Below are positions 28,106 to 63,000 of a stretch of 64,000 bases of DNA, in pieces. Under the pieces are notes generated by a model, which was given only the letters and a program-made list of their open reading frames with translations, was not told the origin of the DNA and made no database searches. The stretch spans positions 11,303,273 to 11,367,272 of the forward strand of contig NC_049989.1 of assembly GCF_000003815.2 (NCBI RefSeq). Direction: 5' to 3'. The position numbers and the translations under genes were made by a program. This DNA comes from Branchiostoma floridae. Taxonomy: Eukaryota; Chordata; Leptocardii; Amphioxiformes; Branchiostomatidae. Every line of letters starts with the position of its first letter. Position 1 is the stretch's first letter.

Positions 28106-28269
28106 CTACATGTCAGCTATCCCCTGAACTCGCTTCATGAGGTTTTGCAGGGTGCTCGTCAGGCTGCGCAGACGCTGTAGGTTGTCTTCCTCTTCTTCAT
28201 CTACGTCGTCCACAGTGACGGCCAGACCCTCAGTATCTAACTCTCGCTCAACTTCCTCACCGCGTTTGG
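28106..28269 (-). CDS. Gene C terminal exon: acidic/basic tail and stop
   Basis: 164 nt, phase 1 start, stop TAG (complement 28106-28108). Encodes 53 residues: [10 protein letters not shown], an acidic patch DDVDEEEED, then a Leu/Arg-rich helix ([17 protein letters not shown]). There is no membrane anchor. KRGE near the start could be a basic processing site. Confidence 0.85.
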
Positions 28270-28904
28270 CTGAAGGAAAAAATACAAAAAAAGGAGTCAG
28301 TCAAGTGAGTATCTGTCAATTTTGCAGTTCAGGTAAAGTAAAAGATGAAGTACATTTTGCTGTAGATTATCTTTTGTATGGTAGCGATAGAAGCATTCTA
28401 TTTGACTATGTGTTAGGTTTTTCCCGTGCACTCCAGATACCTGAATCGTTTCAAAAGTTCAGATACTTTTTTCATTATACTGCTTCTATTCTTTAATGTA
28501 TGTTGACTTTTTAAATATCATCGTTTTATATTGATGATTACGTTTTGAAGAGAGCGCTTTCATAAGCACTGTGCTTTTTAGTCGATGTTCAATGTGAATA
28601 GTAAAAGATGTGTTGCTTTACTCACTCTTGCAGTAGTCTGCAGCCAAGGGCTTGGCTTTGAAGGCAGGGTCCTTACAGATTTGCGCTGGGAATAAAAAGA
28701 ACAAACAGGATGAATCGGTCCTGAATAATTGCCGATTCCTGCTCATAGAATAAATCATGCAACTGCGTTAGGAAAATAAGTCCTTTACCCTACATGTGTA
28801 TCAGCTGTGTCCCAGACTATCATGCCAGGATTGGACCAACGCCACCAACGGCCACGATAATCTCCATAGCACTATTCTAGTCTCACAAGACTAAGTGATA
28901 CCTA

Positions 28905-28968
<64 letters not shown>

Positions 28969-31900
28969 GGTACTTCAGGATTCTAAACGAGACTGGTCTA
29001 TTGTTTACTGTCTCTGGCGCTACTGAATTTGAGCATGTTGATGATGTCAAAATCACATTTCTTCGGAAAAGGTTTGTGAATTTGTTAAGGGTGAACTTGG
29101 ACTGCCAAGACGAACAACGACGTTTTAAAGAAGCCAATACCTAAAATACACTAAATGAAGGGATGTCTTTTCTATTACCTACTGGTGGACGTTATGTTAG
29201 TGATTGTGATATAGTAAAAACCAAAACGATTTACTTACGTGCACAGGCTTGCATGATCTTTCCGAACTGAGGGTGGGCCTTCATAGCGCCTAGCCAGGAA
29301 GCCCATTGACCACAGTCAAGCTCTATAACACAAGACGCAGAAACGATCAGTCATAAAATACAGAATTAGACGCTTTCAAAGCACCAAAACTAAAAAGATT
29401 TGAGACATGCATTTCAAGCTTAATTGAAATTACAAGGAAAAGTTTTTTAAAATGCCAAGCAAGACGTACGTTTGGAGGAGGTCTTAGTCTTCGTCACAGT
29501 CTTCTGGGTCTTAGTGATTTTGAAGGTTGGTCTGTAGCTTTTAGCCGCACCTGTGGAGACAGACATGGAGGCACTTTAATCATCAATCGGTGAATAAAAA
29601 CACATGGCAAATCCTGCATGGGTAATGACGATTACTTTTTGCTCAATTATCTTCTAGCTTGTAGAATAGACCAGTCGTGAACAGTTGTTATTATGAATAT
29701 TTCAGAAGACTGAAATTCTTTTGACAGACTTATTTAACGTCTTTATGACACAAATCCCCGGGTTGGGACAAACAGAAGGTTACGACTGATTCTAGATTCA
29801 CTTTGCTTGTTCTGCATGGCCGGCAAACCACCAGTTTTGTACAGCAGGAACAGGCTGATTTAACCCACTTTAATGTTTGATCTCTTCTATTCGATAAGTT
29901 TGACGGGCTCTTTAACATGGCCAAGGTGTGGCTATCCTCAAACACGGAACCCCCAGCTTAACGTCTCACCCGAAAGTACATTGTAAAGTCCCTAACCAAA
30001 GATAGGTACCGATTCTCACGTGCATCCAGTAAGGAAATAGGAGTGTCAGATGTCTTCCCTAAGGAGATTCCTGGGGATTCAAAGCCAGAGACTTTGGATT
30101 CAAGAATCTTAACAACGACGTCACCTTTCAGGAGGAGCTTTAATTAGTGTTGAGTGCAGTAGAACATTATCCTGGGTACCATCCGGAAAGTAGTTCGCTC
30201 CGGCGCGTTCATTACTGTAAATGCAGAAACTTTCGCGGTGGTTCAATGTTCGCAGTTTTCGCAGTGGCCGCTTCACCGCGAACTTAAAACCACCGCGAAC
30301 ATTTTTCCATGACAGTAATTGGATACAAAGCATGGTACTACCGCGAACTTAAAACTACCGCGAAATTAAATCCCCGCGAACTTGGGAGCGAACTACTACC
30401 CGGATGGTACCCAGGCTAGTAGAACATACCAGCGGTGATGAAAACCTCCGCCCTCAGACCGATGCCTCCTTCGCCCCAGGTGACGGGGATGATGCGGAGA
30501 TACTGCGTCTTAAAGGACTTTGGGGCTTTAAGGGTCACCATGGACGTGGCGTCTTTGTTTCCTTTCAAAACCTGTAACACGGCATTATTCAAAGCGTTAG
30601 CTACAAAGATGACAATAACAAAGTAACAGTACGTATGCACACAAAATGCATCCCGACCAATCCAGTGGGGACATCCCCCGCAAATGTGCACACTCCCCTC
30701 TAGAAAAGGGGACACTCATCGACTTTCCATGGGACACTCCTCTTGGAAAGGGGACGTGTCTCCCTTTATTAGGGGACACTCCTCTGGAAATGGTATGGTT
30801 ATCGGGGAAAGGGGATGTCCCTAGCCCTCGGACACCCCTGCCGACCCGTGGAATCCGCCGTTAACCCGACAAATCGCTTCCTAGTTCATCTATATCACAA
30901 CATCCAAAACTTTTCATTCCGCAACTGCTCTCCACAAACATCTCAGCTCGGAAGGTAGGGAGAGATTTTGATTAAAAATTGAGGCATGTTGGAAATGAAG
31001 CCGACCGCGCGGCAGAACATGTTCTGTTCAGTGTTTTAATGGCGGCGTACCGCACGTCCGGCAAGCACAACATCGAGTTTTAGCCTAAATATCCGCATGC
31101 GTGGTCGGGGTGAAAAGAGTAACTCACCACCGCAGCACCCGTCCCCGCCTTGTAGTCGCTCCAGGTCTCTCCGTCCGCACTGAACTGGATCCTAAACGAC
31201 GCCACCCAGCGGCCTTCTCCACCCTGCAGGCCAAGAGCGGCGATCTCTGTCTTCTGGCCGAGGTTGATCTAAGAAAAGAAAAGAAAAGAGATATTCTGAA
31301 AATAAACTCTGTCTTAATAGAAAATCTTAAAGCTCTTAAAACTATGAACAACCATTTTTCTTTTCTAATTACACTCTGTATGTAGTTATACTTATTTTCT
31401 AATTACATTCTGTATGTAGTTTAATTGCATGTATTTGCATCTAAGGTATGTTGATCTGGATATAGATGACATCCACTGGGTACTTGAAACCTAATGCGAG
31501 AGTGTGAATTAAAAAAATGACCAAACAAAGTTGCCTGCATCATGAAATAATATACCGAACAATATGTTCATCATTTTGCTCTTTCATATCTTCGAGGACC
31601 TTGGAATATTCTGTGACATTAATATACTTTTTCCGATATTTGGTTTTGCAATCCACGGCAAATAGTTGGTTATTTTGAAGCTGCTTTGTACGTTTTACAG
31701 CATGGTTGAAAACTTTTTTCTTCCTTTTAAACAGCCGAAAATTAATGCGCTCGCGGATGTCATCCATGCAATCAAGTCAATTGACCCAATCGTGGCAAAT
31801 TGAAATAGATAGGTATAGAAATGAACTGTACCTGCAAGTACTGCTTTTTATCATTTGTAGCTGGTGCCCAGAAGGACTCGCTGCTGAGGCGGCCCGAAGT

Positions 31901-34900
31901 GGCACCATGGGCGGCGTCCAGCTCTGACGAGGCCGTCAGCACGATAGACAGGGCCTGGGCCGGTATGGCAGCCAGAACCGGAGCTAGTTCTGTCAAACAG
32001 AAACACGATCAAGTTCAAAATAAGACAAATAAAACACACCACAACATTAGGGCTGTTGTATCCTGTGTGACTATCCTTCAAATGAAATATATTTCTCTTT
32101 GTATTCCACAATTTCAAATAGTAAATTATGTTTAATATCACATGTACCTTAGTCTGGTTGAGTGAGGGAAGACGAAAGATAATCGAAGTTAAGTTTATTG
32201 GCACAACACGGAGTACAGTGACGTCGGTAAAACTGCAAACTATAGAATTGAAATATGAAATAAATCTTCAAATTCTACTAGCTAAGCAATAATATACACC
32301 CATAATATCACATTACATCATGGCAAAGTCGTAAGTTTCAGTATACTAAAGGATTTTGGGTTTACTTTTTTTGCATTGTGCGAGTTTTCAGATCTAAAAT
32401 ATAAAGGAATCTTAATACTTAATGCATCAAGTGCCTTGAAATCTCTTGCACTTAAGCATATAACGTTATATATTAACAGTAATAACGTTATGTATAGTTG
32501 CAAAGAAAAAGTACCATGAGAACGCTACAGAAGACAGCAACAGAACTGAGGAAATATATGCTATAAAACAGTTTTATGGCCATCAAACCATCTAATCTAT
32601 TCATGTGCACTTTAAACAATGTAATGGAACTTACGTGTGGTTTTTCCTCCTAGGCCTGTAGGGACAAAGAAGAAGAATTGTGTGAAAAGGATAACAACAC
32701 ATTTCTGAGGTAATAAAGCCAAGTTGAACTTTATACTTCTGATTTTTTCCTTGTTTCTTAATTATGTCATGCTTCGTTATTACTTTGATAATCATATCGA
32801 ATTTAAGTATTATATCTTGTACTTAAGTGATACTTTCGCCTGACTTGTTTGATACCTTGCTTTGATTTTCTGTATTCCCTTTGATATTTGCTAAAAGTAT
32901 ATTTATATAATTCTGACTTATTTCTTTATGATCTGTAGATCATGTTTAGTTTCGATTATTTGCAGCGTTATGATTTTCCTGTGTAGTTTAAGTTGATTTA
33001 ATTTGATTCTGGTGTAGTTTCCATTGATTTCAATTGTTGTTATCAATTAGCTTTGATTTATGTATACTAAGATTCATTTTTTTAGATTATAACCTAGTTT
33101 GTAAAAGGGGAGCCATGAAAGCCTCACAGGCTTCTGTTCCTCCTGCATGTTTTCTTTTCATTCTATTTATCATTTGTTTTTATTCGTTGCATATGTGCTA
33201 AATAAATCAAATCAAACCAATCAAGATATCACTCATATTGACTCAGCTTAGACAACACATGAGTGTTCAGCTTAGATAACGTATGAATATCTTATTGTTT
33301 CCAAATCAATACACCGTACTGAAAGCTAGTTTTACTTAAGAAAAACACCCATAGGTTATTGATCTTCAAGATTATATTTTTTCTTTACTTTTATATCTAC
33401 TTACTCAGCAGGAACTTCTCGCAGTTTAGAGCAGCAAACAAGTCTGCTTTGGTCTTTTTGAAGCTGGGGTCCTGGCAGACATTTGCTGAGGATAAATTAA
33501 AGTAAAGTTGTAAGAATTGTGACAGAAATGTGGGTCAACGCACAATCCATCAAAATGATGATTCCATATGTTGATAACGTCAGATATAATTACTGAATGG
33601 AAAGAAAATAGATCGTAGTATGTCCACATGCATGTATGATGATAATATTTAGACACTACATAATGTTCAAGGGACAAGTCTATCGTAATGTCACAATACC
33701 AAATTGCTTGTGCTGTCCTTAGTTGAAACCTAAGAAAAATGTACTCACGGCGACAGGTCTTCATAACCTTCTCAAAGGTTTTGGCACCGAGTTGTTCCTT
33801 GACTTTGTCGAGCCAAGTGCTCCATTTGGTGCAGTCCAGTTGCATACCTGTAATGTTAAGAGTTATCCAGGCATTTCTTATAAGAATATGACATTCAAGG
33901 TAAGATGTGCTGTTTGATATCATGGACACAGTGACATACCAGTACGAGGTCTGGAGAAATTGCATGCAACATCAACATCTTTCAGTAGCAGAGATGAAAT
34001 TTTACATATTCAGCATTTTGTCAAATTTGCTATAATGTGTTAAAAACACTATAGCACTAGTTCACCTTTGTTTGAGGAGTAACCTATATCCATTGTTTTC
34101 AAAAGCGGTATTTAACGATGTCAAATTGACAGACGTTGGTTTCAAATGGCATCATTTCAAATTAAAGATACTGGAATTTGAAACCAACATCCGCCGACTT
34201 TATATAGATATTCCGAAACACCGTGTTTTTAAAACAATGAATATAGGATACCACGCGGAAAAAGGTGAACTAACGTTAATTCGTTAAGGGGAGTTGTGTA
34301 CAGTGGGAGATGTAATGTTTAATGTAGGATGTTAACGTTATAATGAATACCATTCCAGTGCACTTACTCGAACTCTTTGACGACGTCTGGGTTATTTTGA
34401 AAGTCGGTCTGTAGCTTTTAGCAGCAGCTAGAAAAAGAAAACAGAATATGGTGTAATGTTGCGAACGCATGCAGTCATGATAACACAGTAGAAGCAGCTT
34501 AATTGCACGACCTACTTGCCAGTACATTTCGTGCAATTATCAGGCTGGTGCAAGTATGCGAAGTTATTCAGCTGGACCACACCGGTTTGGGATTTTGGGA
34601 TTCCGTGCAGTTAACAGAAGTGTGCGTTAATCCGTTGTGCAATTAACTGGCTTCTACTGTAGATATATTTTTGTGATCGACCGCTTGTTCTTATTGTATA
34701 GGCATTCTGCTAGGTATAACAGTCAGCATTCTGTGTTTTTTCCAAGAGAAGGAGGGGTCCATTCTACAGTTTAATTGGTCTCACGTTGTTTTGCGGTTAC
34801 ACATGTGATGCCAGGCTAAAAAAATTAAGGCTTTGATTAAATCGATACGGCCTGATTTTGTTTTGGAACATGTCATCTACCGTAATGTTCAGCTAACATG

Positions 34901-46900: not shown

Positions 46901-47167
46901 TGGTCTACAGATTATTAAATCTTATGTGTACATAGCATGTATACACCCCATCATGTATAATGTACTGTCCCTATAAACAATTTTCTTGTAATCCTATCGT
47001 CTGGTTTATAGTGGTGTTGACCTCTTTTGCAGCAACTATGACCTTTGGGGTCACTTCTTGTCAATCTTACACTAGGCTTGGGCATGACGTATCCATTACA
47101 CCCAAATATAGCCACAGTGCCAGAATGGCTATGGTTATGTTTTGTGCTTGTGAGTCTGTGTGTGTGT

Positions 47168-47209
<42 letters not shown>

Positions 47210-48724
47210 ATAACTCAAGAAGCCTCGGATGGATCCAGATAATATTTGGTAGGTGGGTAGGGGTTGGGAAAACGAAGGTCAAGTTCGATAATGGGCTCCC
47301 TAGCGGCTTGCTAAGGTACTGCAGCAGAACTCAATTTTTTATATCTCATGTTCTGGACATGTTGTGGTCGCGATGTTTAAATGGTAAATAGCCCTTGGGG
47401 CAGAGAGTAAGTGCTGTAAGTTTTGACCCCCTAACGGCTTGTTTGGAACTGCAGCCGCCGATTTCCTTTCAAACTTTGGAGGAGAATAACTCGGGAACGT
47501 GTAGAAGGATCGTCATGATTTTTGGTATGTAGATAGCCCAAGTAACAATGTACATAATGGAATACTAATTATTCAAATCAACAGCTAATTTGCATAATTA
47601 ATGAGGAAAGTTTATAAATCCACTGCATTTCATGATAGGACTTTCAAACTTGTCACATATTTAGATGAGAAAGAGAAAAATATCAACGCATATTAATTAT
47701 GCAATTGACCTCATTTGCATAATTCATGAGAAAATATGAATGTGTTGACGGATCGTCATGATTTTTGGTATGTAGATAGCCAAAGGGAAGACTTACATGA
47801 TGGAATTCTAATTATGCAAATCGACAGCTAATTTGCATAATTAATGAGGAAAGTTTGTAAATCTACTGCATTCCATTATAGGACTTTCAAACTTGTCACA
47901 TTTGTAGCTGAGAAAAAGAAATGTCAATACATATTAATTATGCAAATGTTGATCTCATTTGCATAATTAATGGAAAATATGAACGTGTTGACGGATCGTC
48001 ATGATTTTTGGTATGTAGATAGCCTAAGTAAAAACTTACATAATGAGATACCAATTAATAGCTAATTTGCATAATTGATGAGGAAAGTCGATAGATCCAC
48101 TGCATGTAGTTGAGAAAGATGGCAGAGAGTAAGTGGTGTATGTTTGGGTCCCCTATAATGTCTTTTTTTGAACTGCAGATGCCGGTTTTGTTTCAGACTT
48201 TGAAAGAGAATAAGTCAAGAATGAAAGGATCATCATGATTTTTGGTATGCTGATAGCTTAAGTGATGCTTGATACAATTTGATATTAATAGTGTAAATAG
48301 GGATCTAATTTGTATAATCAATGGCAAAATTTTATGAACCAACTCCAGGCATATAAAATAAAATGTAATGAGTGACAAATTTATGTCTACAGACATCATT
48401 CTACATAACAAACCTGGTTTATTTGGCAAAGGTATGTGTTCGTGGAACTCTAGTTTTAGTTTTGGAGGAGGAACCATCAATTTGATACCTACTTGTTTCA
48501 CAGTTATTGCCGCCATATCCAAGCTTGCAGGTGCAACGGTACCCATCCACCAAGTCTTCGCACGTGCCTTCGTTTTGACATGGGCTTTCTGCGCAGTCAT
48601 CTACATCTGTAGGCAAAAAAGGAAACGAATATATCAGAGTTGACAGATGTTACCGTACCCATACTGCTTTGTGACTCTTCCAAATCCCACAGACAAACGT
48701 AGCATGTATAGCAATGCCACACAT

Positions 48725-48790
<66 letters not shown>

Positions 48791-54700: not shown

Positions 54701-57700
54701 TCCTTGCAGTCGTCAACATCTGTAAATCAAGATAAGTATCAGTAATAAGTCCTGATTCGAACAGTGCATAGAGTCAATAAAGTAGAAGTCATTGATAGCT
54801 TTAAAGAAGATCATGTGCTTGAAATACAGTCGACTACGTGACCGAACCGTTGGTTCACTACAAATCTACTTTGCAACAATTTCCCGAATGAGCTATGTTC
54901 TAGACATACAAAGAATTTACACAGTACCAGTTGTAGAATAGAAGTCATAGCGATCAATTTAGTACCAACCTAATTCGCAGTTGTTGCCAGCAAATCCGAC
55001 CTTACAGACGCACTGGTACCCGTCCACCATGTCTTTACATGTGCCTTCGTTTTGACATGGGTTAGCGGCGCAGTCATCCACATCTGTAGTACAAACAAAC
55101 AAACAAACAAATGAAAAACACTCCCGGTTTAAATTGTCAGTTAGACGGTAAAGGTTCTTGACTCAATATATTTCTCTATAAGAAATTTTAAGAAAGTATC
55201 TCAAAGAAGAAAGTGATAATTAAACATAGCGATAATAAAATGATAATCGGACTCACTTGTTTCGCATAGGACTCCGGCGTAACCCTTTGGACAGACACAT
55301 TCGAAGTCGTCCACCTTGTCTCTACATTCGGCGCCATTTTGACACGGTTTTCCAGCGCAGTCGTCTATGTCTGTGTGATAACATCAACATTCGATAGGGA
55401 GTAGAAATATAGCGTTAGTTATGTATCTAGCTTTTCTAGCATCATAAAATAAAAATGTGTCTTCCATTTGACTTTTACTTATTGCCCTTCGTTGGAGAGA
55501 AGAAAACTAGTGGAAAGAATCATCTAAATTTATTTTCATCGTGATACAATATTTTGATGTCATCTGTTGTTTGCCATTTTACTGCTAGGTACCATTCTTC
55601 AATTAAACACCACCTCTTTCTCAATATATAAGACAAGAAAAAAAAATTTCATACTGTCGTCTATGTCTACATAAGAATCATGCATTTCTCGTTTAACATT
55701 TGGTACAGAGTAAGAATGAAGCAGAACACTTGTTTATTTAAAAGAGGGCATATACATAGTCCATGTTGCGAATCTTTGATTTATTGTACGCGAGTCAGAT
55801 TCTCAACGTACAAAACTACTCGAACGAAGCGACTACTCGAAGCAAAACTGTGTCAAATGTTACTTACTTAGCTCACACACGTTGCCAGAATACCCCTTCG
55901 CACAGATACATTTGAAGCCGTTGACTTGATCTTCGCATACCCCGCCATTTTCACAAGGATTCTGGCTACAGTCATCCACATCTGTGAATATTGATTGATG
56001 CTTGTGTTAACGCGCAATGTGCTAATGCTTGTTTGAAGTTTGTTCGGGTATCATACGGTGATATACGATGAAATATATGCTTGTAAAAGCCGCTTAATTG
56101 CACACATCATTTGCGAGCGTATTTCGTGCAATTATCCGGGCGGTGCAACAATGCAAAGTTATCCAGCTGGTTTTGTTACCCCGTGCAATTGACAAAAGTG
56201 TGCGATTATCCGATATGAAGGTTTGACATCCAGGTAATAAGATAGTCCAAAATATAGTTTACTCCAGCCACTGGATATGATTATGGAAACGGCCAGACAG
56301 CTGACAGCATTCACTGTCTTTCGTCAGTTACATTGTACTTTGTACTGTTTTACACGAAATATAAAATGTACTATAATAATAATAGTAGTATAATAAGTAT
56401 AATAATCTATGATTATTCGCTGTATAAGGTTATAAGGTATCATAATATAGATAATTGAAACCTGCTATAGAAATATAGCGATCTGAGCGCAAGTTGTCTC
56501 ATATCCAGTTGACGTTGCTTTAGATACGATGACTTAAGATCATGGTCAATTCTGTATGAATACCACAACGATTGACCCAAATGAAAATATAACTGAATAG
56601 AATTTTCATCAAGCAGTGACTACGTTTTAAAGGTAAACACACGTACCTTCAAATTTTTAATGGCTATCAGTCCATCTTGCTCACGGAGTGACCTAGTTCT
56701 CGCGAGAGTCGCGACTGGAGGAGACCTAGTTCTCGCGAGAACTGGGTCATTACGTGAGCAAGATGGACTGATAGCCATCGAAAATTTGAATGTACGTGTG
56801 TTTACCTTTAAAAAATGTAGTCACTGCTTGATGAAAATTCTATTAACTGTGTATATACGTGACTAATGGATATCTTTAACAATATTAATGAAGTGCTTAA
56901 TGCTTTACTCACTTGTTTCACACCTGTCCCCGGTGAAGCCCAGTTTACAGATGCACTGGAACTTGTTCCCGATGTCCTTGCACTCGGCACCGTTTTGACA
57001 AGGATTCGGAGAACAGTCGTCAATTTCTGGAATTCCAATAGATATAGGAGCCACTCAAAATAACCATACACCATGTATTGTGATCAACTTATCAATGAAA
57101 AAACACCAGTCGAAGCCGATTATGCACGTTATTTATATTATGAAATAGTGGAAGAAAAATACATCCTTATCGTGATTTGATATTTATCTTTCTGAAAGAA
57201 ACCACAATACGCTAGAATCATTATAATTGTGCTTTTGTCACGAAAATGAAGCATAGAAGAGTGTAGTAGTATACACACATTATGCACATAATATTTTCAC
57301 TGTTTTGTGCGTTTCCTTGCCTTTTGTATAAAAGTTTCCGTTCCCATAATCTGCCCGGCCGTGCACCAGGTGGGTTTGGAAATGCTAATCAAGCAGTGCG
57401 GAGCCGGCAAAAGATACGAGATAAATGTGCATTTACCTGAGTTAAAGAGGCAGTAAGTCAGTAACGAATGCAATGTTTACCTGGCTGAGCTTTTATCGGA
57501 GCAGAAGGAACCGGTACAGGAACTGGGACTGGGACAGGGCTTCCTTTGCAGCCTGGAGGACAGAGAGTTTACAGCACACAAGCTGTTTAGCTTTGGCTCA
57601 ACACATTTTTGAATTTAACCTTGAATTTACCATGGGGAACATACAGCTAGACACGAAAGCCTCTTATGGCTGGGGGTGACTTGCATCCACTGTACATCAC

Positions 57701-60700
57701 TTGAGTCTTTTTCCTTCTACGTAGTGCATTCAACTTTAAAGACATAGATATGAAGTTTCCAAATGGGTGGCTAGATTATGCTGACAATCGAATATGGTGA
57801 AAAAAGATGACGCATGGTCAATTTATTACAACAATCATGAAAGAAACGAAATACGCAGTGTCAAATCCGATAGAATTTACGCTATGCATGATATCAACGG
57901 AGCAAGTGTTAGATGTCATCTCTTCTAAAAAATGTCTTTTCGAAACAGACATGACTATAGATAATACAATACTTAAGTGATTTTTCATTCCTAATGATAA
58001 CTTTTTTATAATACACAAGTTGGTCGTGCAGGAGATATACATTGTAGCAGCGCTACGTTTCGGGGGGGGGGACGTATGATGTGTAACTTGGTTATGATGT
58101 AGAGCATGTTCTAACCGCATGGTGGCGCTGTGCAGCACTTGTGGCAGCACCCGTCGTCCCCGTGTCCTCCGTACACAGAGATCTGGTTGTTGATGACGTT
58201 GATGGCTCCTTGGCCGTCGGTTCCTGAGGCGTGTGTTCAAGATACAAGTGATGAGTTTTATAGACTGCAGCAAATAATATTTTCGCTACAGTAACTGTAA
58301 ATGCATTCAAGTTAGCGGGAATTTAATTTCGCGGTAACGAGAAAAAGGACTTTTCGCGGTGGTTTTAAGTTGGTGGTAGCGCCATGCATTTTAGTCTCTT
58401 ACTGCCATGAAAAAAATTTCGCGGTGGTTTTAAGTTCGCGGTAAAACAGCCACCGACAAAACCGTGAACATTAAACCACCGTGAAAGTTTCTGCATTTAC
58501 AGTTTTGCAACGATTACAATGTAGCTAGATGACTGTGTATGGTCTTGTTCGGAAGCAAGGTTGAGCTGACATATCCAACACAAAAACACGTACTCGTACA
58601 AGTTTTCGACTGCCTAATTTTAGTCTTTGTCAAAGAATGAACAACCCAAGGCTTCTGTGACGTTCCATTGGGTTGGTCATTCTTCGGTAAAGACTGGAGT
58701 TGGATAGTCATAAATTTGGGTAAGTCCACTTTTCATGTTCAAGGTTACAGTCAAACCTTGATCCAGATAGCCTATAGAAACACTGATCAAATTTCAAGCT
58801 AAAACTCTTGTATCTTGCAGTGTAGTGTGCATTGTCCATTGAATTGAAAGGGCATGGAACTCCATTTATACTGATATGCTCATGATGAAGAAAAATGAAA
58901 TGTTTTGCACCATTAAGATACATTTGCGAAACAAGGGACTGAAAGTATAAAAGGACTAAACTGGCTGCACTCACCAGTCTTTCCGCCAGGTGTCGCCCCA
59001 CCATCTGCACCGATCTGGATGTAAACGCCTCGTTTTGCAGAATCGTCGTCACCGGCTGTTAACGTATTAACGAATTAGAAACTTCATTGTCGCAAGAAAT
59101 AATACAGAGACTTTCGCACAGTCAAAAAAGAACTATAGAATAGAAATGCAAAATGTATCTAAACATCCTACTAGCTGACGACCCATAATAGTATGTTATC
59201 TTTAGCTTTATAGTATCTTTTCTGATAACAAAGCAATCTTTAAGGTGTTATCCTATTTTTGGATTGTGAGTGTTGTCACGTCTAAAATATAATATAATAA
59301 TAATAATAATCTTTATTGCAAATTCATGCCCGAGGGCTAATTGCATACAGGGTAAGGTAGTAGTCGTATACATAAACATACTTAACAAAGAAGGGAAATG
59401 ATAAGCATAGAGAAATAAAAAGGGAATAACGTCTAAACTAAATCAATTTCTACTTTATTTATAAGCTAATTGATGGGTTTGACTTCTTTTCCGTATGCAG
59501 TAGAAGATGAATTGTCCAACATTTTCATATATAAAGGGGTTGGACGACTTAAGCAAGAAGATGGATTTTTGTTCGTCGGTAAGATTATAAAAGCTTGGGA
59601 AATTTTTGTAGAATATAACCTGCTCAAGACATTGGATGGCTTTATAAATCTAGATCTCTTGTACTAAGAAACACAGACATTGGTAACGAGAAATCCTGAT
59701 TGATAGAAGCTTTTAATAGTGTCAACTGTAACCTATATCCGTTCTTTTTAAGACCAAGGTATTTAGGGATATCAAGTCGACGGATTGTGGTTTCAAACTG
59801 CAATATTTTCAAAATAGTATGATTTTGAAACCATCGTCCGTCGACTTGATATCTCGAGATACCCCTTTAATTAACACAACGGATATTGGTTACCCCGCGA
59901 ATAAAGGTGTACTAACGTTATATCCAACATGAACCTCCCCCAGTACATGGTATTTAATTGACACTTACCACGTGGAGCCAAGCCAGTGCAGGTACCAAGA
60001 AGCAAACAGCCTAGCCATGAGATAATAGAAAACAAAGTAGTCAACACACCACACTTCACGCTGTACGATTTATGACGGCAAATGATGGTTGTCTATACAA
60101 AACCTTTACTGAAAATTCACATCCACAATGCAGCAGAAGAAAAGTATATTCAATCAAGATACGGAATGTATAGCAATGTGTAATTTGATTTTGCAGATCC
60201 TTGCCAGTGGGCTAATTGCAGGTAACATAAGAGATTCAAACAGACTAAAAACTATATCACAAATGTCTACTCTGGTCTAAAGCTAGTAAAAGCTAACTCT
60301 AGAACCTGTGTTATTGGGTTCGGCTTCTTTTTCAAAGACAGTGGAAGACGAAAGATCCCACTTTTTCTATTATGTGTGGGTTATGTGATGTTAGAAGGAG
60401 AACTGTTTTCTTTTTGTCAGTGAATGTGAGGAGGTTTGGGTGGATTTGGTGGCCTCTCTCTTCAAACAGCTCTTGGGTAGTATGTAACAAATAGTAGGTA
60501 ACGTTATAATAGCCAGTAAACGTATTGTCTTACCTTTTTTGACTTGTTCATGAGGTTCTCCAGAAGACTCTGGTATAGACACGATTGGTAGATATTCTGG
60601 CAGGGAGATGGATTGGTCATCTGTATGTGGCAGAAATGTGAAAATAAACAGGTGCTTTGAAAACAGATGTCTTAAATTTGAATGAAATCATTATGGTAAA

Positions 60701-63000
60701 AAATGATGAGGGCACCCACTGCAGTGTGAACTGATTACATGTAGACAGTAGCGATAGAGGAGTTCGGTGTAAGTATCGGTCTATTTTTGCTAAGCCGATA
60801 TGGGAAAATACAACTCATCCTTGGGACCTACTTTCAGGTTACCTTGTCTGTTTCTTATGATAAACTAAAGGAAGGTCACACAGAAACTAGAACAAAATAG
60901 TTGACTCATTAGCAGCAACCGCGTCTTGACTTTGTCTCTCTTTCTCCATACTCAGTTCATGTCAATTCTTAGTTTATGTTTGAACAGTGCTATAGGTTCT
61001 TCATTGACTGACAAAAAGGTAGTTCCTACCCGAAATGTCTTTCCGGTTACATATCTAGTTTTCAGTAGCTTGAGTAATCATATATTGCGTTACAACTGAA
61101 AATGTTAGGGTGCCTAGGTCTAAAACGAAGTCGGTTATCATCTTTTTTGTATTTCAAAAAGTCTTCTTAAATGTGTCTAAACTGACCAGAAAGTTCCCTG
61201 AGACTCTGATCCTCCCCCTCCTCAGGGTCCTCTAGGTTGGTCAGATGTACGGTCACTTTGTCTCCGGACACCTCCTGGTCAATCGCGTACTTACTGTCTG
61301 TTTGAGAAGAAAAGAAGAAACAAAACTTTCAATACGGTACTTTTCCATCAGCATTGCCTACAGATTAACTGACCACTTTGTCTCCGGACACTTCCTGGTC
61401 AATCACGTATTTACTGTCTGTTTTAGAACAAAAGAAAAAAAACTGTCAATACGGTACGTTTCCATCAGTATTTGCCTTCATATCAACTAACCACGTATAC
61501 ATACATACTGATTTAAAATGGGGTTCTGAGTGAAGTATATAATCGGTTGTATTAGAGATACTTGTGTTTCACAGACCTTTGTCATCATCAACTGAGAGAA
61601 AGACAATAGTCCTTCAGGACAAATATTAACAACAGTTGAGGTAGCATATATTTTACATTCTGATTTTGAGTAACATTCATGGATCGTCAACCTTTTCTGT
61701 ATAGATGTTGTACATCCTGTTCCTTGCGATCTACGGCTTGTTTTATGTAAACAGCACAGTAACAATACAGTTGAAGCCAGTTAATTGCACACCGCATAAT
61801 CGCACAATTCTGTTAATTGCACGAAATCCCCAAAGCTCATGGTGATGCAGTCCAGCTTAATAACTTCGCTTTGTTGCACCATTCGGATAATTGGACGAAA
61901 TATGCTCTGACAAATGGAGTGTGCAATTATGGCGGCTTCCACTGTACTACGTTGTACGTAAAATAGTGTCCTGATGGATCCAAGCTTCACTTACCAGAAT
62001 CACTTTCTTCTTCATCAATGGCTTCAAGCATTCCTGCTACATCGATCATCTGGTCATCGTTGACATCTGGTAAAGAAGAAACAAAACGGATTGAATACAA
62101 ATTTTCCAATATAGACAGAGAACAATACATATAATAGAACTTGGTTTTAAGTCATCTTTTGTTTGCAGTCATCAACGTTTCGTCCTAGCAAATTCACCAA
62201 TTGTACTTACCAGAATCACTTTCTTCTTCATCCATGGTTTCAAGCACTCCCCGTACATCGAACATCTGGTCATCGTTGATATCTTGTAAAGAAGATGCAA
62301 AACGGATTGAATACAATTTTCCAACGTGGACAGAGAATAATAGAACTTGGTTTTAACTTAACATTCTTCCTTTATTTGTAGTCAGCGTGTTGCGATCGCA
62401 AATTCACCAATTGTACTTACCAGAATCACTTTGTTCTTCATCAATGGCTTCAGGTATTCCTGCTACATCGAACATCTGGTCATCATTGACATCTTGCAAA
62501 AGAAGAAACAAAACGGATTGAATACAATTTTCTGCATAGACAAAAGAAACTATAACATCTTTAACATGATACCTTCTCTTATTTGTAGTCAAAAACGTTT
62601 TCGCTCGCAAATTCACAAATTGTGTACTTTACATCCATTTCAGAAATAAGACTGCTGGGAATGTACTACAGTCGTGGAGGGAAAGAATAGATAGTATACT
62701 TGCAACTTTCAGTAGAATTCGAAGCACTTATGGGGCCAGTAATTAAGATACATAGAATAAGTCTCTAAACTAAGAATGTTTCGGTGAATATATTTAACAA
62801 TCAATTGTCATATTTTTACCATTTACAGGTTAATAAGGTCTATAAAATTACATTAGCAATAGTCTTACCAAAAGTGTCTTCTTCGTTTCCCCTGAGGTCC
62901 TGGATATGTCCCTCATCTTTAGCCACCTGGTCCTGGACGCCATTGAGAAGATCCTCGATCTGTTCAATGTAGATATCCTGACCCTGCAGGTCTCTTCGCA
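28106..63000 (-). CDS. Gene C: giant secreted EGF / Q-repeat / F5/8C / four-cysteine module protein (55 exons, 5' end outside window)
   Basis: About 5.83 kb of CDS in 55 exons, all frame-checked, ending in TAG. Order: acidic N-terminal exons, Cys/Gly-rich exons, a Pro-Val linker, 17 EGF domains (114 nt each), short Thr/Pro linkers, a Gln-rich repeat exon, two CP modules, two F5/8C domains, a CP, a third F5/8C, a final CP and an acidic/basic tail. The EGF repeats carry the D/N-x-D/N-x-C start and the C-x-[DN]-x4-[FY]-x-C hydroxylation consensus of calcium-binding EGFs. F5/8C domains bind lipids, glycans or collagen in other proteins. The architecture implies a multivalent extracellular matrix or adhesive protein (inference). 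EGF plus F5/8C recalls MFGE8/EDIL3, but the size, order and extra modules differ. No signal peptide or first exon is seen; these should lie beyond 64,000. Confidence 0.85.
28306..28495 (+). pseudogene. LINE C-terminal fragment in gene C last intron
   Basis: Reads ICQFC, VKDEVHF and then Y-x4-R-x3-F, the diverged C-terminal Cys/His pattern of Jockey/CR1-type LINE ORF2. Antisense to gene C. Confidence 0.55.
28626..28685 (-). CDS. Gene C CP4 second half
   Basis: 60 nt, phase 1-1. Contains [10 protein letters not shown] and ends DYCK. Shorter than the other CP second halves (81 nt); the F...x-C part is compressed. Confidence 0.85.
28905..28967. repeat. (TA)n microsatellite
   Basis: About 30 uninterrupted AT units in an intron. 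Confidence 0.95.
29239..29322 (-). CDS. Gene C CP4 first half
   Basis: 84 nt, phase 1-1, donor GTAAGT. Contains [14 protein letters not shown], then [10 protein letters not shown]. The WAxxxG...PxF...M...C spacing resembles part of an ShKT domain. Confidence 0.85.
29470..29550 (-). CDS. Gene C linker exon (SYRPTFKIT type)
   Basis: 81 nt, phase 1-1. Starts [12 protein letters not shown], then a Thr/Lys-rich run. Its first 14 codons are nearly identical to those of the exon at 34368-34427, showing recent linker duplication. Confidence 0.85.
29740..30020. repeat. Dispersed repeat fragment
   Basis: ATGGCCAAGGTGTGGCTATCCTCAAACACGG-like sequence (29914-29945) resembles 38800-38860, including the following TTAACGTC.CACCC. 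Unknown class. Confidence 0.45.
30168..30417. mobile_element. CCTGG-terminus inverted-repeat element with 10-bp target duplication, carrying a nested M1 MITE
   Basis: The ends CCTGGGTACCATCCGG and CCGGATGGTACCCAGG are flanked by identical AGTAGAACAT (30158-30167 and 30418-30427). The right duplication includes part of the splice donor of the adjoining F5/8C exon. A truncated M1 copy sits inside. Confidence 0.8.
30213..30384. mobile_element. MITE, family M1, copy 3 (truncated, nested)
   Basis: Starts TACTGTAAATGCAG with the CGCGG/CCGCG palindromic interior but lacks the opposite GCATTTACAG terminus. Confidence 0.75.
30430..30571 (-). CDS. Gene C F5/8C domain 3, exon c
   Basis: 142 nt, phase 0-1. 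Contains [19 protein letters not shown] and [12 protein letters not shown], the C-terminal F5/8C strands (RxIxP..W...I.LR.E). Donor GTATGT. Confidence 0.88.
30650..30840. repeat. Degenerate GGGGACACTCC minisatellite
   Basis: Several variants of GGGGACACTCC/T and the complement in an intron. Confidence 0.5.
31128..31268 (-). CDS. Gene C F5/8C domain 3, exon b
   Basis: 141 nt, phase 0-0. Contains [33 protein letters not shown], the F5/8C core (L...I..QG....YS.DG..W). Confidence 0.88.
31832..31989 (-). CDS. Gene C F5/8C domain 3, exon a
   Basis: 158 nt, phase 1-0. Contains [20 protein letters not shown], then [15 protein letters not shown]. The SFWAP..ND...YLQ motif starts the discoidin fold. 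The usual flanking cysteine is absent. Confidence 0.88.
32635..32655 (-). CDS. Gene C 21-nt linker exon
   Basis: Encodes LGGKTT between acceptor CCTACAG and donor GTAAGT, phase 1-1. Small, but the frame and Thr/Lys content fit the other linkers. Confidence 0.7.
33105..33225 (+). mobile_element. LINE-like 3' tail
   Basis: GGGGAGCCATGAAAGCCTCA ... GTGCTAAATAAATCAAATCAAA, a typical CR1/L2-like 3' end, antisense in an intron. Confidence 0.45.
33405..33485 (-). CDS. Gene C CP3 second half
   Basis: 81 nt, phase 1-1. [16 protein letters not shown] ... LNCEKFLL. Same length and spacing as in CP1 and CP2. Confidence 0.88.
33749..33847 (-). CDS. Gene C CP3 first half
   Basis: 99 nt, phase 1-1. [19 protein letters not shown] ... 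FEKVMKTCR. Confidence 0.88.
34079..34279. mobile_element. Palindromic element, family M4, copy 1
   Basis: AACCTATATCC ... GGATA; inner GTTTCAAATGGCATC / TTTGAAACCAACATC arms. A second copy is at 59729-59923. Confidence 0.65.
34368..34427 (-). CDS. Gene C linker exon (SYRPTFKIT type)
   Basis: 60 nt, phase 1-1, [19 protein letters not shown]. Paralogous to 29470-29550. Confidence 0.85.
34486..34659. mobile_element. Pogo/mariner-like MITE, family M3, copy 1
   Basis: CAGTAGAAGC...TTAATTGCAC / GTGCAATTAACTGGCTTCTACTG ends. Copies lie at 53342-53509, 56094-56217 and 61766-61946; the last shows a clean TA duplication. Confidence 0.75.
35273..35414 (-). CDS. Gene C F5/8C domain 2, exon c
   Basis: 142 nt, phase 0-1. 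[35 protein letters not shown]. Donor GTTAGT rather than GTAAGT. Confidence 0.86.
35482..35730. mobile_element. CCTGG-terminus inverted-repeat element with 10-bp target duplication
   Basis: TACCCTGGATGCCAGACAGG ... CCGGCTGGCCCCCAGGGT flanked by identical AAGACGCACC (35472-35481 and 35731-35740). 249 bp, largely self-complementary. Confidence 0.85.
36062..36202 (-). CDS. Gene C F5/8C domain 2, exon b
   Basis: 141 nt, phase 0-0. [31 protein letters not shown]. Confidence 0.88.
36663..36817 (-). CDS. Gene C F5/8C domain 2, exon a
   Basis: 155 nt, phase 1-0. [39 protein letters not shown]. One codon shorter than exon a of domains 1 and 3. Confidence 0.88.
37190..37264 (-). CDS. Gene C Thr-rich linker exon
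   Basis: 75 nt, phase 1-1. [14 protein letters not shown] then QTTTTTK. Likely O-glycosylated spacer between F5/8C 1 and 2 (inference). Confidence 0.82.
37737..37878 (-). CDS. Gene C F5/8C domain 1, exon c
   Basis: 142 nt, phase 0-1. [38 protein letters not shown]. Confidence 0.88.
37936..37976 (+). mobile_element. Family M2 remnant
   Basis: CCTTTAAAAAGTAGTCACTG ATTGATGA-like end of the M2 family only. Confidence 0.5.
38151..38273 (-). CDS. Gene C F5/8C domain 1, exon b
   Basis: 123 nt, phase 0-0. [34 protein letters not shown]. Six codons shorter than exon b of domains 2 and 3. Confidence 0.88.
38424..38600 (+). mobile_element. tRNA-derived SINE
   Basis: The head has an A-box-like TGGTAGAGCG and a B-box-like GAGTTCGATCC about 35 bp later, followed by a tRNA-unrelated body (CACCTGACTTCGGTCGGGGAGG). 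It cannot fold as a full functional tRNA. It is antisense in the intron between F5/8C 1 exons a and b. Confidence 0.7.
38556..39045. repeat. Long inverted repeat around SINE tail
   Basis: CTTCGGTCGGGGAGGTAA...GTGGCACTG (left) and its inverse ending at 39045 (right), arms about 110 bp, with unrelated sequence between. It ends about 70 bp from the F5/8C 1 exon a donor. Confidence 0.7.
39119..39276 (-). CDS. Gene C F5/8C domain 1, exon a
   Basis: 158 nt, phase 1-0. [20 protein letters not shown], then [18 protein letters not shown]. Confidence 0.88.
39360..39448 (+). mobile_element. LINE-like 3' tail
   Basis: GGTCTCCCCGGCCACACAGG ... TTTGCCTGGTTAAACAAATAAACTG resembles CR1/L2 3' ends. Confidence 0.45.
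39530..39562 (-). CDS. Gene C short Thr/Lys linker exon
   Basis: 33 nt, phase 1-1, [10 protein letters not shown], donor GTAAGT. Confidence 0.78.
39762..39842 (-). CDS. Gene C CP2 second half
   Basis: 81 nt, phase 1-1. [16 protein letters not shown] ... IDCASFLL, nearly identical to the CP1 second half. Confidence 0.9.
   Translation of the reverse strand, partial: PLCAKTQHSRKSMQTYSAPSIVPPSC
40259..40357 (-). CDS. Gene C CP2 first half
   Basis: 99 nt, phase 1-1. [19 protein letters not shown] ... FQNVMKTCQ. Confidence 0.9.
40753..40776 (-). CDS. Gene C 24-nt linker exon
   Basis: ISKTESQ, phase 1-1, acceptor TTTCACAG and donor GTATGT. Joins CP1 and CP2 in frame. Confidence 0.7.
40967..41047 (-). 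CDS. Gene C CP1 second half
   Basis: 81 nt, phase 1-1. [16 protein letters not shown] ... IDCASYLL. Confidence 0.9.
41512..41610 (-). CDS. Gene C CP1 first half
   Basis: 99 nt, phase 1-1. [18 protein letters not shown] ... FPKIMGQCK. First of four CP modules after the Gln-rich exon. Confidence 0.9.
41874..41912 (-). CDS. Gene C Ser/Thr linker exon
   Basis: 39 nt, phase 1-1, [12 protein letters not shown]. Confidence 0.8.
42158..42637 (-). CDS. Gene C Gln/Ser/Glu repeat exon (17 units)
   Basis: 480 nt, phase 1-1, 159 residues, starting [12 protein letters not shown] and ending TQQVSQ. It consists of 17 units based on QSEQTQQV (24 nt), some extended by ETQ or TQ insertions and one QSEETQQV. 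It has no cysteine and would be extended or intrinsically disordered, possibly a transglutaminase substrate (inference). Because the unit length is a multiple of three, several other frames on both strands also stay open; those are artefacts. It is a likely length-polymorphic minisatellite. Confidence 0.9.
42925..42954 (-). CDS. Gene C 30-nt linker exon
   Basis: VAAPLEQPK, phase 1-1, donor GTGAGT. Confidence 0.75.
43375..43428 (-). CDS. Gene C linker exon after EGF block
   Basis: 54 nt, phase 1-1, [17 protein letters not shown]. Joins the last EGF to the Q-repeat part. Similar to the preceding 30-nt exon (VA.P.EQP). Confidence 0.78.
43859..43972 (-). CDS. Gene C EGF 17 (last)
   Basis: 114 nt, phase 1-1. 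[19 protein letters not shown] ... GITGDLCER. Six Cys; hydroxylation motif [10 protein letters not shown]. Confidence 0.93.
44124..44470. repeat. GATA/GAGA/GATT simple-sequence cluster
   Basis: Tracts of GATA, GAGA and GATT in the intron between EGF 16 and 17. Confidence 0.85.
44599..44712 (-). CDS. Gene C EGF 16
   Basis: 114 nt, phase 1-1. [19 protein letters not shown] ... GWSGNLCEL. Type C-like start and end. Confidence 0.93.
44761..44892 (+). mobile_element. Inverted-repeat element, family M2 (half copy)
   Basis: TCTCGCGAGAACTGGGTCAC through TAGTCACTGATTGATGAAA; one arm only. Starts 48 bp upstream of the EGF 16 acceptor. Confidence 0.7.
45330..45443 (-). CDS. Gene C EGF 15 (type A)
   Basis: 114 nt, phase 1-1. 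[19 protein letters not shown] ... GFAGKLCET. Donor GTAATT. Confidence 0.93.
45972..46085 (-). CDS. Gene C EGF 14 (type C)
   Basis: 114 nt, phase 1-1. [19 protein letters not shown] ... GYSGNLCEL. Confidence 0.93.
46317..48260. repeat. Two-part tandem repeat array in the EGF 13/14 intron
   Basis: Part 1 (46317-47450): three copies of a unit with CATAACTCGAGA, GATATTTGGTGGGTGGGTAG, AGTTCGATAATGGGC and CCCCCTAGCGGCTT. Part 2 (47460-48260): three or four copies of a ~240-bp unit with GGATCGTCATGATTTTTGGT, TATGTAGATAGCC and TAATTTGCATAATTAATGAG. The parts share their entry motif, suggesting one repeat family. No coding. A (GT)n tract at 47158-47208 interrupts part 1. Confidence 0.75.
48493..48606 (-). 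CDS. Gene C EGF 13 (type B)
   Basis: 114 nt, phase 1-1. [19 protein letters not shown] ... GYGGNNCET. Donor GTAGGT. Confidence 0.93.
48718..48848. repeat. (CA)n microsatellite
   Basis: About 130 bp of CA repeats with TA interruptions. Confidence 0.95.
48960..49073 (-). CDS. Gene C EGF 12 (type A)
   Basis: 114 nt, phase 1-1. [19 protein letters not shown] ... GYGGDLCET. Donor GTGAGT. Confidence 0.93.
49074..50199. other. Intron between EGF 11 and EGF 12
   Basis: About 1.1 kb, non-coding; no element recognised. Longer than the other C-to-A introns. Confidence 0.5.
50200..50313 (-). CDS. Gene C EGF 11 (type C)
   Basis: 114 nt, phase 1-1. [19 protein letters not shown] ... GYSGNACEV. Confidence 0.93.
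50595..51480 (-). mobile_element. LINE fragment (reverse transcriptase C-terminus plus 3' UTR)
   Basis: Reads [17 protein letters not shown] and [12 protein letters not shown], the motif downstream of the RT domain in Jockey/CR1-type LINEs. A 3' region follows, ending in (ATT)n at 50595. 5'-truncated, same strand as gene C, in the intron between EGF 10 and EGF 11. Confidence 0.8.
51774..51887 (-). CDS. Gene C EGF 10 (type B)
   Basis: 114 nt, phase 1-1. [19 protein letters not shown] ... GYAGNNCEI. Donor GTTAGT. Confidence 0.93.
52143..52256 (-). CDS. Gene C EGF 9 (type A)
   Basis: 114 nt, phase 1-1. [19 protein letters not shown] ... GYAGDLCET. Confidence 0.93.
52738..52851 (-). CDS. Gene C EGF 8 (type C)
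   Basis: 114 nt, phase 1-1. [19 protein letters not shown] ... GYSGNLCEL. Confidence 0.93.
53342..53509. mobile_element. Pogo/mariner-like MITE, family M3, copy 2
   Basis: TA-CAATAGAAGCCAGTTAATT ... GTGCAATTAAGCGGCTTCTATGG-TA; target TA on both sides. Confidence 0.75.
53704..53817 (-). CDS. Gene C EGF 7 (type B)
   Basis: 114 nt, phase 1-1. [19 protein letters not shown] ... GFAGNNCEI. Donor GTTGGT. Confidence 0.93.
54002..54115 (-). CDS. Gene C EGF 6 (type A)
   Basis: 114 nt, phase 1-1. [19 protein letters not shown] ... GYAGDLCET. Confidence 0.93.
54606..54719 (-). CDS. Gene C EGF 5 (type C)
   Basis: 114 nt, phase 1-1. [19 protein letters not shown] ... GYSGNLCEL. Confidence 0.93.
54970..55083 (-). 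CDS. Gene C EGF 4 (type B)
   Basis: 114 nt, phase 1-1. [19 protein letters not shown] ... GFAGNNCEL. Donor GTTGGT, as in EGF 7. Confidence 0.93.
55257..55370 (-). CDS. Gene C EGF 3 (type A)
   Basis: 114 nt, phase 1-1. [19 protein letters not shown] ... GYAGVLCET. Hydroxylation motif [10 protein letters not shown]. Confidence 0.93.
55654..55672 (-). pseudogene. Remnant of a type A EGF exon start
   Basis: TGTAGACATAGACGACAG repeats the acceptor and first codons of the type A exons, with nothing following in frame. Probably debris of an earlier unit duplication. Confidence 0.4.
55868..55981 (-). CDS. Gene C EGF 2
   Basis: 114 nt, phase 1-1. [19 protein letters not shown] ... GYSGNVCEL. Confidence 0.93.
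   Translation of the reverse strand: MWMTVARILVKMAGYAKIKSTASNVSVRRGILATCVS
56094..56217. mobile_element. Pogo/mariner-like MITE, family M3, copy 3 (partial)
   Basis: AAAAGCCGCTTAATTGCAC ... TGCAATTGACAAAAGTGTGCG; the far end has decayed. Confidence 0.6.
56590..56866. mobile_element. Palindromic element, family M2 (full copy)
   Basis: Two inverted arms (AGAATTTTCATCAAGCAGTG ... and inverse ... CACTGCTTGATGAAAATTCT) meet at a CTCGCGAGA-rich centre. The other M2 copies are single arms of this structure. Ends 46 bp before the EGF 1 donor side. Confidence 0.8.
56913..57026 (-). CDS. Gene C EGF 1 (first)
   Basis: 114 nt, phase 1-1. [19 protein letters not shown] ... GFTGDRCET. First of the EGF block, directly after the Pro-Val linker. 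Confidence 0.93.
57481..57552 (-). CDS. Gene C Pro-Val linker exon
   Basis: 72 nt, phase 1-1. CKGSP, five Val-Pro pairs, then SAPIKAQP. One cysteine. A stiff extended spacer before the EGF block. Confidence 0.85.
58116..58223 (-). CDS. Gene C Cys-cluster exon
   Basis: 108 nt, phase 1-1. [20 protein letters not shown], then CCHKCC...PPC: five cysteines in 12 residues. No family recognised. Donor GTTAG. Confidence 0.83.
58292..58504. mobile_element. MITE, family M1, copy 4
   Basis: ACTGTAAATGCATTCAAG ... TTCTGCATTTACAGT with the CGCGG palindromic interior. Confidence 0.85.
58975..59055 (-). CDS. Gene C Gly-rich exon
   Basis: 81 nt, phase 1-1. [30 protein letters not shown] could be a proprotein cleavage point (inference). 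Confidence 0.83.
59288..59660 (-). mobile_element. LINE-type 3' region
   Basis: On the minus strand it ends in (ATT)n after TTTGCAATAAAGATTATT, as in the LINE at 50595-51480. The open stretch at 59470-59667 on the plus strand is not a gene. Confidence 0.45.
59729..59923. mobile_element. Palindromic element, family M4, copy 2
   Basis: AACCTATATCCGTT ... AACGGATATTGGTTACC; inner ATATCAAGTCGACGGA / TCCGTCGACTTGATAT arms. Ends 46 bp before the 42-nt exon. Confidence 0.7.
59969..60010 (-). CDS. Gene C 42-nt exon
   Basis: [13 protein letters not shown], phase 1-1, donor GTAAGT. Hydrophobic with two cysteines; too short to be a membrane segment. Confidence 0.7.
60534..60620 (-). CDS. Gene C N-terminal region exon
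   Basis: 87 nt, phase 1-1. [28 protein letters not shown]. Pro/Ser/Glu-rich, likely disordered. Confidence 0.82.
61187..61297 (-). CDS. Gene C acidic exon
   Basis: 111 nt, phase 1-1. [20 protein letters not shown], then [13 protein letters not shown]. Donor GTCAGT. Confidence 0.82.
61374..61417 (-). pseudogene. Partial tandem copy of the acidic exon
   Basis: Repeats the acceptor and first 44 nt ([14 protein letters not shown]) of the exon at 61187-61297 together with the flanking intron, in a ~125-bp tandem duplication. If used with the next GTCAG donor it would end in phase 0 and break the frame, so it is probably a dead exon. Confidence 0.6.
61766..61946. mobile_element. Pogo/mariner-like MITE, family M3, copy 4
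   Basis: TA-CAGTTGAAGCCAGTTAATT ... GGCGGCTTCCACTG-TA, the best-preserved copy. TA target duplication and ~12-bp inverted ends point to the Tc1/mariner-pogo superfamily. Confidence 0.8.
61995..62066 (-). CDS. Gene C acidic 72-nt exon, copy 3
   Basis: Phase 1-1. [23 protein letters not shown]. Third of three tandem copies. Confidence 0.88.
62211..62282 (-). CDS. Gene C acidic 72-nt exon, copy 2
   Basis: Phase 1-1. [23 protein letters not shown]. Acceptor AAG instead of CAG. Confidence 0.86.
62421..62492 (-). CDS. Gene C acidic 72-nt exon, copy 1
   Basis: Phase 1-1. [23 protein letters not shown]. Acceptor AAG. Exon plus intron repeat every 210-216 bp. Confidence 0.86.
62869..63000 (-). CDS. 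Gene C most upstream exon seen
   Basis: 132 nt, phase 1-1, acceptor [26 protein letters not shown], then [15 protein letters not shown]. Probably helical and acidic. The phase-1 acceptor means at least one earlier coding exon must exist. Confidence 0.82.

Follow-up and report, generated by a model that had tools for sequence, protein, structure and literature searches.

A predicted mosaic gene combining EGF, Gln-rich, CP and F5/8C modules in Branchiostoma floridae

The stretch of Branchiostoma floridae DNA analyzed here, called the window below, comprises 64,000 nucleotides (C11:11303273-11367272), and genome-wide searches covered the B. floridae assembly of 513,431,437 bases. The main feature of the window is a gene predicted on the minus strand, which encodes, in this order, an N-terminal module, 17 EGFs, a Gln-rich repeat, the series CP-CP-F5/8C-F5/8C-CP-F5/8C-CP and an acidic tail. 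The final model has 53 exons and 1,931 codons without a stop, every junction being in open frame. An initial annotation of the same DNA had counted 55 frame-consistent exons; the open-frame chain is retained here, with 52 exons in the window (53 in total). The protein had also been described as giant, but at about 1,930 aa (an approximate length, since the first acidic exon may begin earlier, at 63108), or 1,749 aa without the acidic exons, it is large rather than giant. From its putative start to its stop, the gene consists of the following features (window positions):

67924-67858 (window numbering continued, 3.9 kb past 64000), minus: putative signal-peptide exon MGLLTQLVVILAAAVVCVTSGPG, with ATG
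63000-62869, 62492-62421, 62282-62211, 62066-61995, 61297-61187 and 60620-60534, minus: six acidic exons, phase 1-1, probable members of the gene
58116-59055, minus: N-terminal GVYIQIG...CC module (exons 59055-58975 and 58223-58116), 67% identical to that of a paralogue
57481-57552, minus: Pro/Val exon, with the paralogue counterpart CQASRPAPVPVP
43859-57026, minus: 17 EGF exons of 114 nt each, phase 1-1, in an A-B-C superrepeat of three (HMM, Pfam)
43375-43428, minus: linker exon (model)
42925-42954, minus: small linker exon VAAPLEQPK, 30 nt, weak acceptor (0.12)
42158-42637, minus: Gln-rich exon, 16 QSEQT units (TRF arrays)
40967-41610, minus: CP1, two exons (own HMM)
39762-40357, minus: CP2, two exons (own HMM)
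39530-39562, minus: Thr/Lys linker exon (model)
37737-39276, minus: first F5/8C domain, three exons (Pfam, 8.8e-25)
37190-37264, minus: Thr-rich linker exon (model)
35273-36817, minus: second F5/8C domain, three exons (Pfam, 3.1e-24)
34368-34427, minus: Lys/Thr-containing linker exon, like 29470-29550 (model)
33405-33847, minus: CP3, two exons (own HMM)
32635-32655, minus: 21-nt linker exon LGGKTT (model)
30430-31989, minus: third F5/8C domain, three exons, phases 1-0-0-1 (Pfam, 7.8e-25)
29470-29550, minus: Lys/Thr-rich linker exon (26% K, 26% T, no D/E)
28626-29322, minus: CP4, short form (exons 29322-29239 and 28685-28626; HMM, E 3.4e-15 and 1.3e-7)
28106-28269, minus: terminal exon, acidic tail with dibasic KR, stop TAG (model)

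Modules and their order

HMMs made from the window's own modules were run against its 2,869 six-frame stop-to-stop pieces. At E < 1e-6 they recovered 17 EGFs, four CP first exons, four CP second exons and nine F5/8C exon-thirds (three domains), all on the minus strand and in the order given above; the next-best match on either strand had an E of at least 0.13. A domain search of the joined protein, which had been proposed as a check, was made with Pfam on a 1,747-aa model (an earlier version that left out the acidic exons and one linker and included a signal exon later dropped). This search gave 17 EGFs (E = 6.3e-128) and three F5_F8_type_C domains (E = 1.8e-66), in a list of 10 families at E <= 0.01 that also holds cEGF, a family named for complement proteins. 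The EGF/Gln/CP/F5/8C architecture that the initial annotation had described is confirmed, and lies on the minus strand, which had gone unstated.

A home-made gene finder gave the minus strand a score of 522; the plus strand reached 9.6, and five first-order Markov controls 0, 0, 0, 5.8 and 0. The comparison is partly circular because the finder's tables were trained on these same exons. Its path contains 49 exons, missing some of those added by hand and including a truncated copy at 61417. With the acidic exons left out of the count, the 45 internal exons comprise 36 of phase 1-1 and the nine that make up the three F5/8C triplets. In every comparison made between EGF, CP or F5/8C copies, pN was lower than pS (uncorrected proportions).

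The EGF superrepeat comprises three classes (EGF 3, 6, 9, 12 and 15; EGF 4, 7, 10 and 13; EGF 2, 5, 8, 11 and 14), with identities of 65-95% within classes and 51-73% between them. EGF3 and EGF6 are 95% identical, and flanking DNA was duplicated too: the 300-bp flanks downstream of these two exons, which include the next EGF exon, are 82.5% identical over 303 columns. Comparison within classes, which covered 13 of the 17 EGFs, gave pS of 0.14-0.71 and pN of 0.02-0.18. The 17 EGFs hold 102 cysteines, and all of them show a loose form of the calcium/hydroxylation-type pattern (six cysteines, acidic N-cap, [DN]x4[FY]), 16 of 17 also showing the stricter form, as expected of a calcium-type array. 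An exon reading CVCVCV at 48847-48731 is a microsatellite and was removed from the model. An intron fragment on the minus strand (51088-51393) matches the Pfam model ALKBH8_N at 1.1e-7; this model also matches the ends of LINE reverse transcriptases, and the fragment is likely a non-LTR retrotransposon remnant.

Each F5/8C domain scores 85.9-87.9 bits against PF00754, for which the curated cut-off is 28.2, and none of the three contains a cysteine. Their profile matches neuropilin, factor VIII/V, lactadherin and discoidin. Between copies (three of three for the last exon, two of three for the others), pS was 0.55-0.76 and pN 0.16-0.31. Among the 150 of 352 candidates scored, the best F5/8C matches elsewhere in the genome are 39-46% identical (C11:19.59-19.62 Mb) and 35-36% identical (C6:22.02-22.07 Mb). 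Some F5/8C matches, at C16:11.75 and 12.25-12.30 Mb and at C6:22.02-22.05 Mb, stand in very long open frames (1,235-1,350 codons), whereas copies elsewhere are split into exons.

The CP module has ten invariant positions across 12 aligned copies, three cysteines and two tryptophans among them, and full copies have four cysteines. For three of the four copies in the window gene, pS was 0.62-1.00 and pN 0.11-0.41; CP1-2 are not basic (pI 6.4). Helicity by hydrophobic moment gave no clear outcome. The database searches gave CP no credible relative. With 12 members against Pfam, the best values were 0.01 (DUF7007, four of 12) and 0.072 (VP16-like, one of 12), judged to be chance; PDB gave no credible match (best E 0.93), NCBIfam matched none of four members, and the best PHROGs value, 0.043, was not credible. 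Stretches fitting the CP pattern occurred 34 times in GTDB genomes and 52 times in viral contigs (IMG/VR), none of them confirmed. Two genome-wide searches with the full CP, at E up to 1, placed all their matches (20 of 20 and 21 of 21) on C11, in the window gene and in a same-strand cluster 15-22 kb past the window. The weakest of these are near chance by themselves, yet sit in those two places.

The Gln-rich arm consists of 42% Q and 1% K, and its repeat is open in several frames. A comparison of its units was not used as evidence of selection, as the units had been picked by peptide; a QSEET unit stands beside them. The five Lys/Thr linkers contain 8-26% K, 20-55% T and no D/E. The N-glycosylation sequon is absent from both the 1,747-aa and a 1,757-aa model, which is unusual for a large matrix protein. 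Shuffling of the whole model, which treats EGF repeats that are not independent, gave 10.5 expected sequons vs none observed, and none of 5,000 shuffles was free of them; outside the EGFs, 3.0 were expected vs none observed, and 3.5% of shuffles had none. RGD is likewise absent from the 1,747-aa model. The protein has one LDT and one LDV motif, both easily explained by chance; LDT has been proposed as an integrin site in Nectin, according to passages of PMC10057474.

Gene start, acidic exons and tail

The coding start probably lies outside the window. The ATG exon MGLLTQLVVILAAAVVCVTSGPG was chosen for its likeness, by eye, to MQLVVQLVIMTAAAVCVSSAPG of two small paralogues; its donor, scoring 1.4, is weak. 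Four further readings of this ATG signal-like kind, at 71727, 70855, 69402 and 69366, were found in the interval from the stop of the paralogue (71777) to 59060. The chosen exon replaced a candidate inside the window, 60060-59969, which is hydrophobic and in phase but has no in-frame ATG and a weak acceptor (-1.7). Outside the modelled exons, hydrophobic stretches precede three of 37 strong minus-strand donors (60060-59969 included) vs one of 33 plus-strand donors.

Between the signal exon and 59055, only acidic exons pass as phase 1-1 candidates (acceptor and donor >= 0, codon score > -2), the copy at 62282 falling below the acceptor threshold. For the first of them, the alternative start at 63108 has an acceptor of 3.0 vs -0.3. 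The 72-nt exons belong to a tandem DNA repeat of about 216 bp; they have good donors and are phase 1-1, so that the acidic repeats may be exons. In the three 72-nt copies, however, pS was 0.20, 0.08 and 0.08 vs pN of 0.15, 0.07 and 0.12, so that no constraint is evident. The acidic repeats of the initial annotation are in phase with the gene, but their copies carry no sign of constraint. A 120-bp tandem duplication at 61254-61494 left a truncated copy of the next exon, 61417-61370, which was excluded from the model.

The acidic tail is 29% identical to the tail of one small paralogue, with KR common to both (two sequences compared), and a genome search with it matched itself alone (1/1). Tail helix moments gave weak results, with 37, 143 and 62 of 1,000 shuffles reaching the observed value.

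Related genes in the genome

Sequence comparison places the window gene in a local family, a relationship beyond what the initial annotation had considered. Three predicted genes lie upstream on the same strand, and a more distant one on C3:

C11:11381949-11397042 (approximate), minus: main paralogue (gene finder, fetched flanking sequence)
C11:11375049-11381429, minus: two small genes, each with a signal-like exon and a short CP (gene finder)
C3:4146002-4174201 (approximate), minus: large predicted mosaic gene (gene prediction and HMM)

The gene finder joined the upstream run, from 93770 to 71777 (window numbering continued), as one gene; it is taken here as several, given the further ATG signal-like exons within it, at 78157 and 74098. 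The first two upstream genes yielded no terminal exon, and there are assembly gaps among these genes. The main paralogue would encode MWASGLLFLTAAALVVSAAP, one EGF, RGVYISIG...CC, a Pro/Val exon, a Thr/Pro/Val repeat exon, and seven full CPs and a short one, separated by short Gln/Lys linkers. It shares with the window gene the GVYI module, Pro/Val exon and CP modules, and a signal-like exon (putative in the window gene), but differs in its single EGF, its Thr/Pro/Val rather than Gln repeat and its seven full and one short CP; no F5/8C match was found in it at E 0.01. Each small gene has one short CP, and the last has an acidic tail ending at the stop 71777. The two are 99.9% identical over 1,263 bp with gaps nearby, so one may be an assembly duplicate, or the duplication may be recent.

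A 13-residue core of the GVYI module is identical in the window gene, the C11 paralogue and the C3 gene, with nucleotide differences at 5, 1 and 6 of 39 positions, all third codon positions; the C3 copy was found at E 0.0025 in the genome search and 4.5e-10 with the HMM. RR or KR directly precedes GVYI in both C11 genes, and the C3 gene has no dibasic pair there. The predicted C3 gene has nine cysteine-rich F5/8C-type domains before six EGFs, the GVYI module and an acidic tail. EGFs, GVYI module and acidic tail are thus common to it and the window gene, whereas the nine cysteine-rich domains, the number of EGFs and the absence of any CP match set it apart.

Nature and origin of the protein

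From sequence, it is moderately probable that a single mosaic gene begins with the probable signal exon, 3.9 kb beyond the window, ends at the stop at 28106, and encodes a secreted protein of about 190-210 kDa that is adhesive or part of the extracellular matrix. The 17 calcium-type EGFs would form a stiff rod. The F5/8C domains, which lack cysteines, and the four-cysteine CP modules that alternate with them would make up an adhesive head, mostly basic apart from CP1-2, that could bind cell-surface lipid or glycan. By their composition, the Gln-rich arm and the five Lys/Thr linkers would suit transglutaminase cross-linking. Acidic segments beside dibasic sites at both ends may be propeptides, cut off after secretion; the C3 gene, without a dibasic pair before the module, and the tail search, which found only itself, count against this. 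The predicted sequence of events would be secretion, proteolytic trimming, adhesion via the head and possibly transglutaminase cross-linking. The ATG signal-like exon, the 17 EGFs and the three F5/8C domains accord with the earlier proposal of a lineage-specific protein with a matrix or adhesive role, a function read from domains; lineage specificity draws on the lack of credible Pfam or PDB matches and of confirmed ones in GTDB and IMG/VR, and on the restriction of the full CP to one locus of the single animal genome searched, that of B. floridae.

It is rather unlikely that the locus holds two genes. In that case, one gene would carry the EGF array and end behind EGF17 or behind its linker, with the Gln/CP/F5/8C part as a gene of its own, or the break would fall after the second F5/8C domain. 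The gene finder does split after 35268, beyond that domain, at penalty 0, but keeps a single gene at penalties 1, 3, 6 and 10. In favour of two genes, four of 301 ATG readings in 28000-57030 are hydrophobic with a phase-1 donor > 1. Yet the one at 48794 consists of a CA/TG microsatellite, that at 39900 continues into the second exon of CP2, 43075 has a codon score of -12.6 and an end better read as the 30-nt linker exon, and 34470, with a codon score of -3.8, crosses the polypyrimidine tract that belongs to a linker acceptor. In addition, a single predicted run holds both the N-terminal module and the CPs of the paralogue.

A soluble humoral protein (agglutinin, opsonin or clotting factor), in which F5/8C binds microbes or cells and the Gln arm is a substrate for clot cross-linking, seems unlikely. 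F5/8C domains do occur in clotting factors and lectin-like proteins, and the one of the nine C3 domains that was scanned with Pfam matches the galactose-binding model F5_F8_type_C_2 at 2.5e-24. Nothing specific counts against this role, but no protease or fibrinogen family is among the 10 Pfam families, though cEGF is. A Notch-pathway ligand or decoy is highly improbable: the nearest solved structures to the EGFs queried, EGF1-8, are Delta-like 1 and Notch 1, Delta-like/Jagged EGF models match at 6.5e-17 and 1.1e-8, and there are six C2-x4-[ST]-C3 O-fucose-type sites, but O-glucose-type sites number zero and no DSL, LNR or ankyrin family is among the 10 found at E up to 0.01.

The EDIL3/MFGE8 plan consists of few EGFs and two F5/8C domains, the latter a C-terminal pair with terminal disulphides, and includes an RGD in an EGF. 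The window protein resembles it in placing EGFs before F5/8C and in a profile match to lactadherin (MFGE8), but differs in its 17 EGFs, Gln arm, CP interleaved between F5/8C domains, F5/8C domains free of cysteines, and lack of RGD in the 1,747-aa model. Sea urchin Nectin, as described in passages of PMC10057474, has 984 aa, a signal peptide and six F5/8C domains, and the same passages report that marine temporary-adhesion proteins reuse combinations of EGF, vWD, SUEL lectin and F5/8C (PMC10057474). Repeated F5/8C, a signal peptide (here putative) and the combination of EGF with F5/8C are points of likeness to the proteins so described, from which the window protein differs in having no vWD or SUEL among its Pfam families. 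The architecture had been thought to have no known named counterpart, and none was found in open-licence PMC text among the matches listed, a search that the slash spelling of F5/8 type C may escape. A term search of the main text of PMC4224354 found none of discoidin, amphioxus and lancelet. The architecture and the CP and GVYI-core modules are new; the general kind of protein is already known.

Returning to the single mosaic gene, it probably evolved from a paralogue-like CP gene to which phase-1 shuffling and tandem duplication added exons for EGF, the Gln repeat and F5/8C; this direction is putative. Phase-1 exon shuffling is documented in lancelets (PMC4284660), and the window gene fits the process as described there. 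The nearby related gene suggests how exon shuffling assembles such proteins; the general process being already published (PMC4284660), the locus illustrates it well without establishing a new principle. Tentatively, it might also be the type member of an extracellular system invented by cephalochordates. Such a system would consist of cross-linkable, propeptide-protected mosaic proteins defined by CP and the 13-residue GVYI core, with a local family keeping successive stages of the exon shuffling by which a CP gene acquired exons for EGF, the Gln repeat and F5/8C. The locus offers two compact undescribed modules, one of which (the full CP) was found at a single locus of this genome. In its local family, the way in which phase-1 shuffling added exons for EGF, the Gln repeat and F5/8C can be studied directly, and comparison among lancelet species could test how a new extracellular protein arose.

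Two further features of the window were observed. At 8101-18491, on the minus strand, predicted exons form a small gene that begins Lys/Glu-rich and ends Gly-rich (GGIGGFFKSLFSKKK); Pfam matched nothing in its hand-joined protein at 0.01. Two introns contain stretches of the ACTACCGCGAACTTAAA type (30337-30383 and about 58300-58480) that resemble each other and might be a short mobile element.
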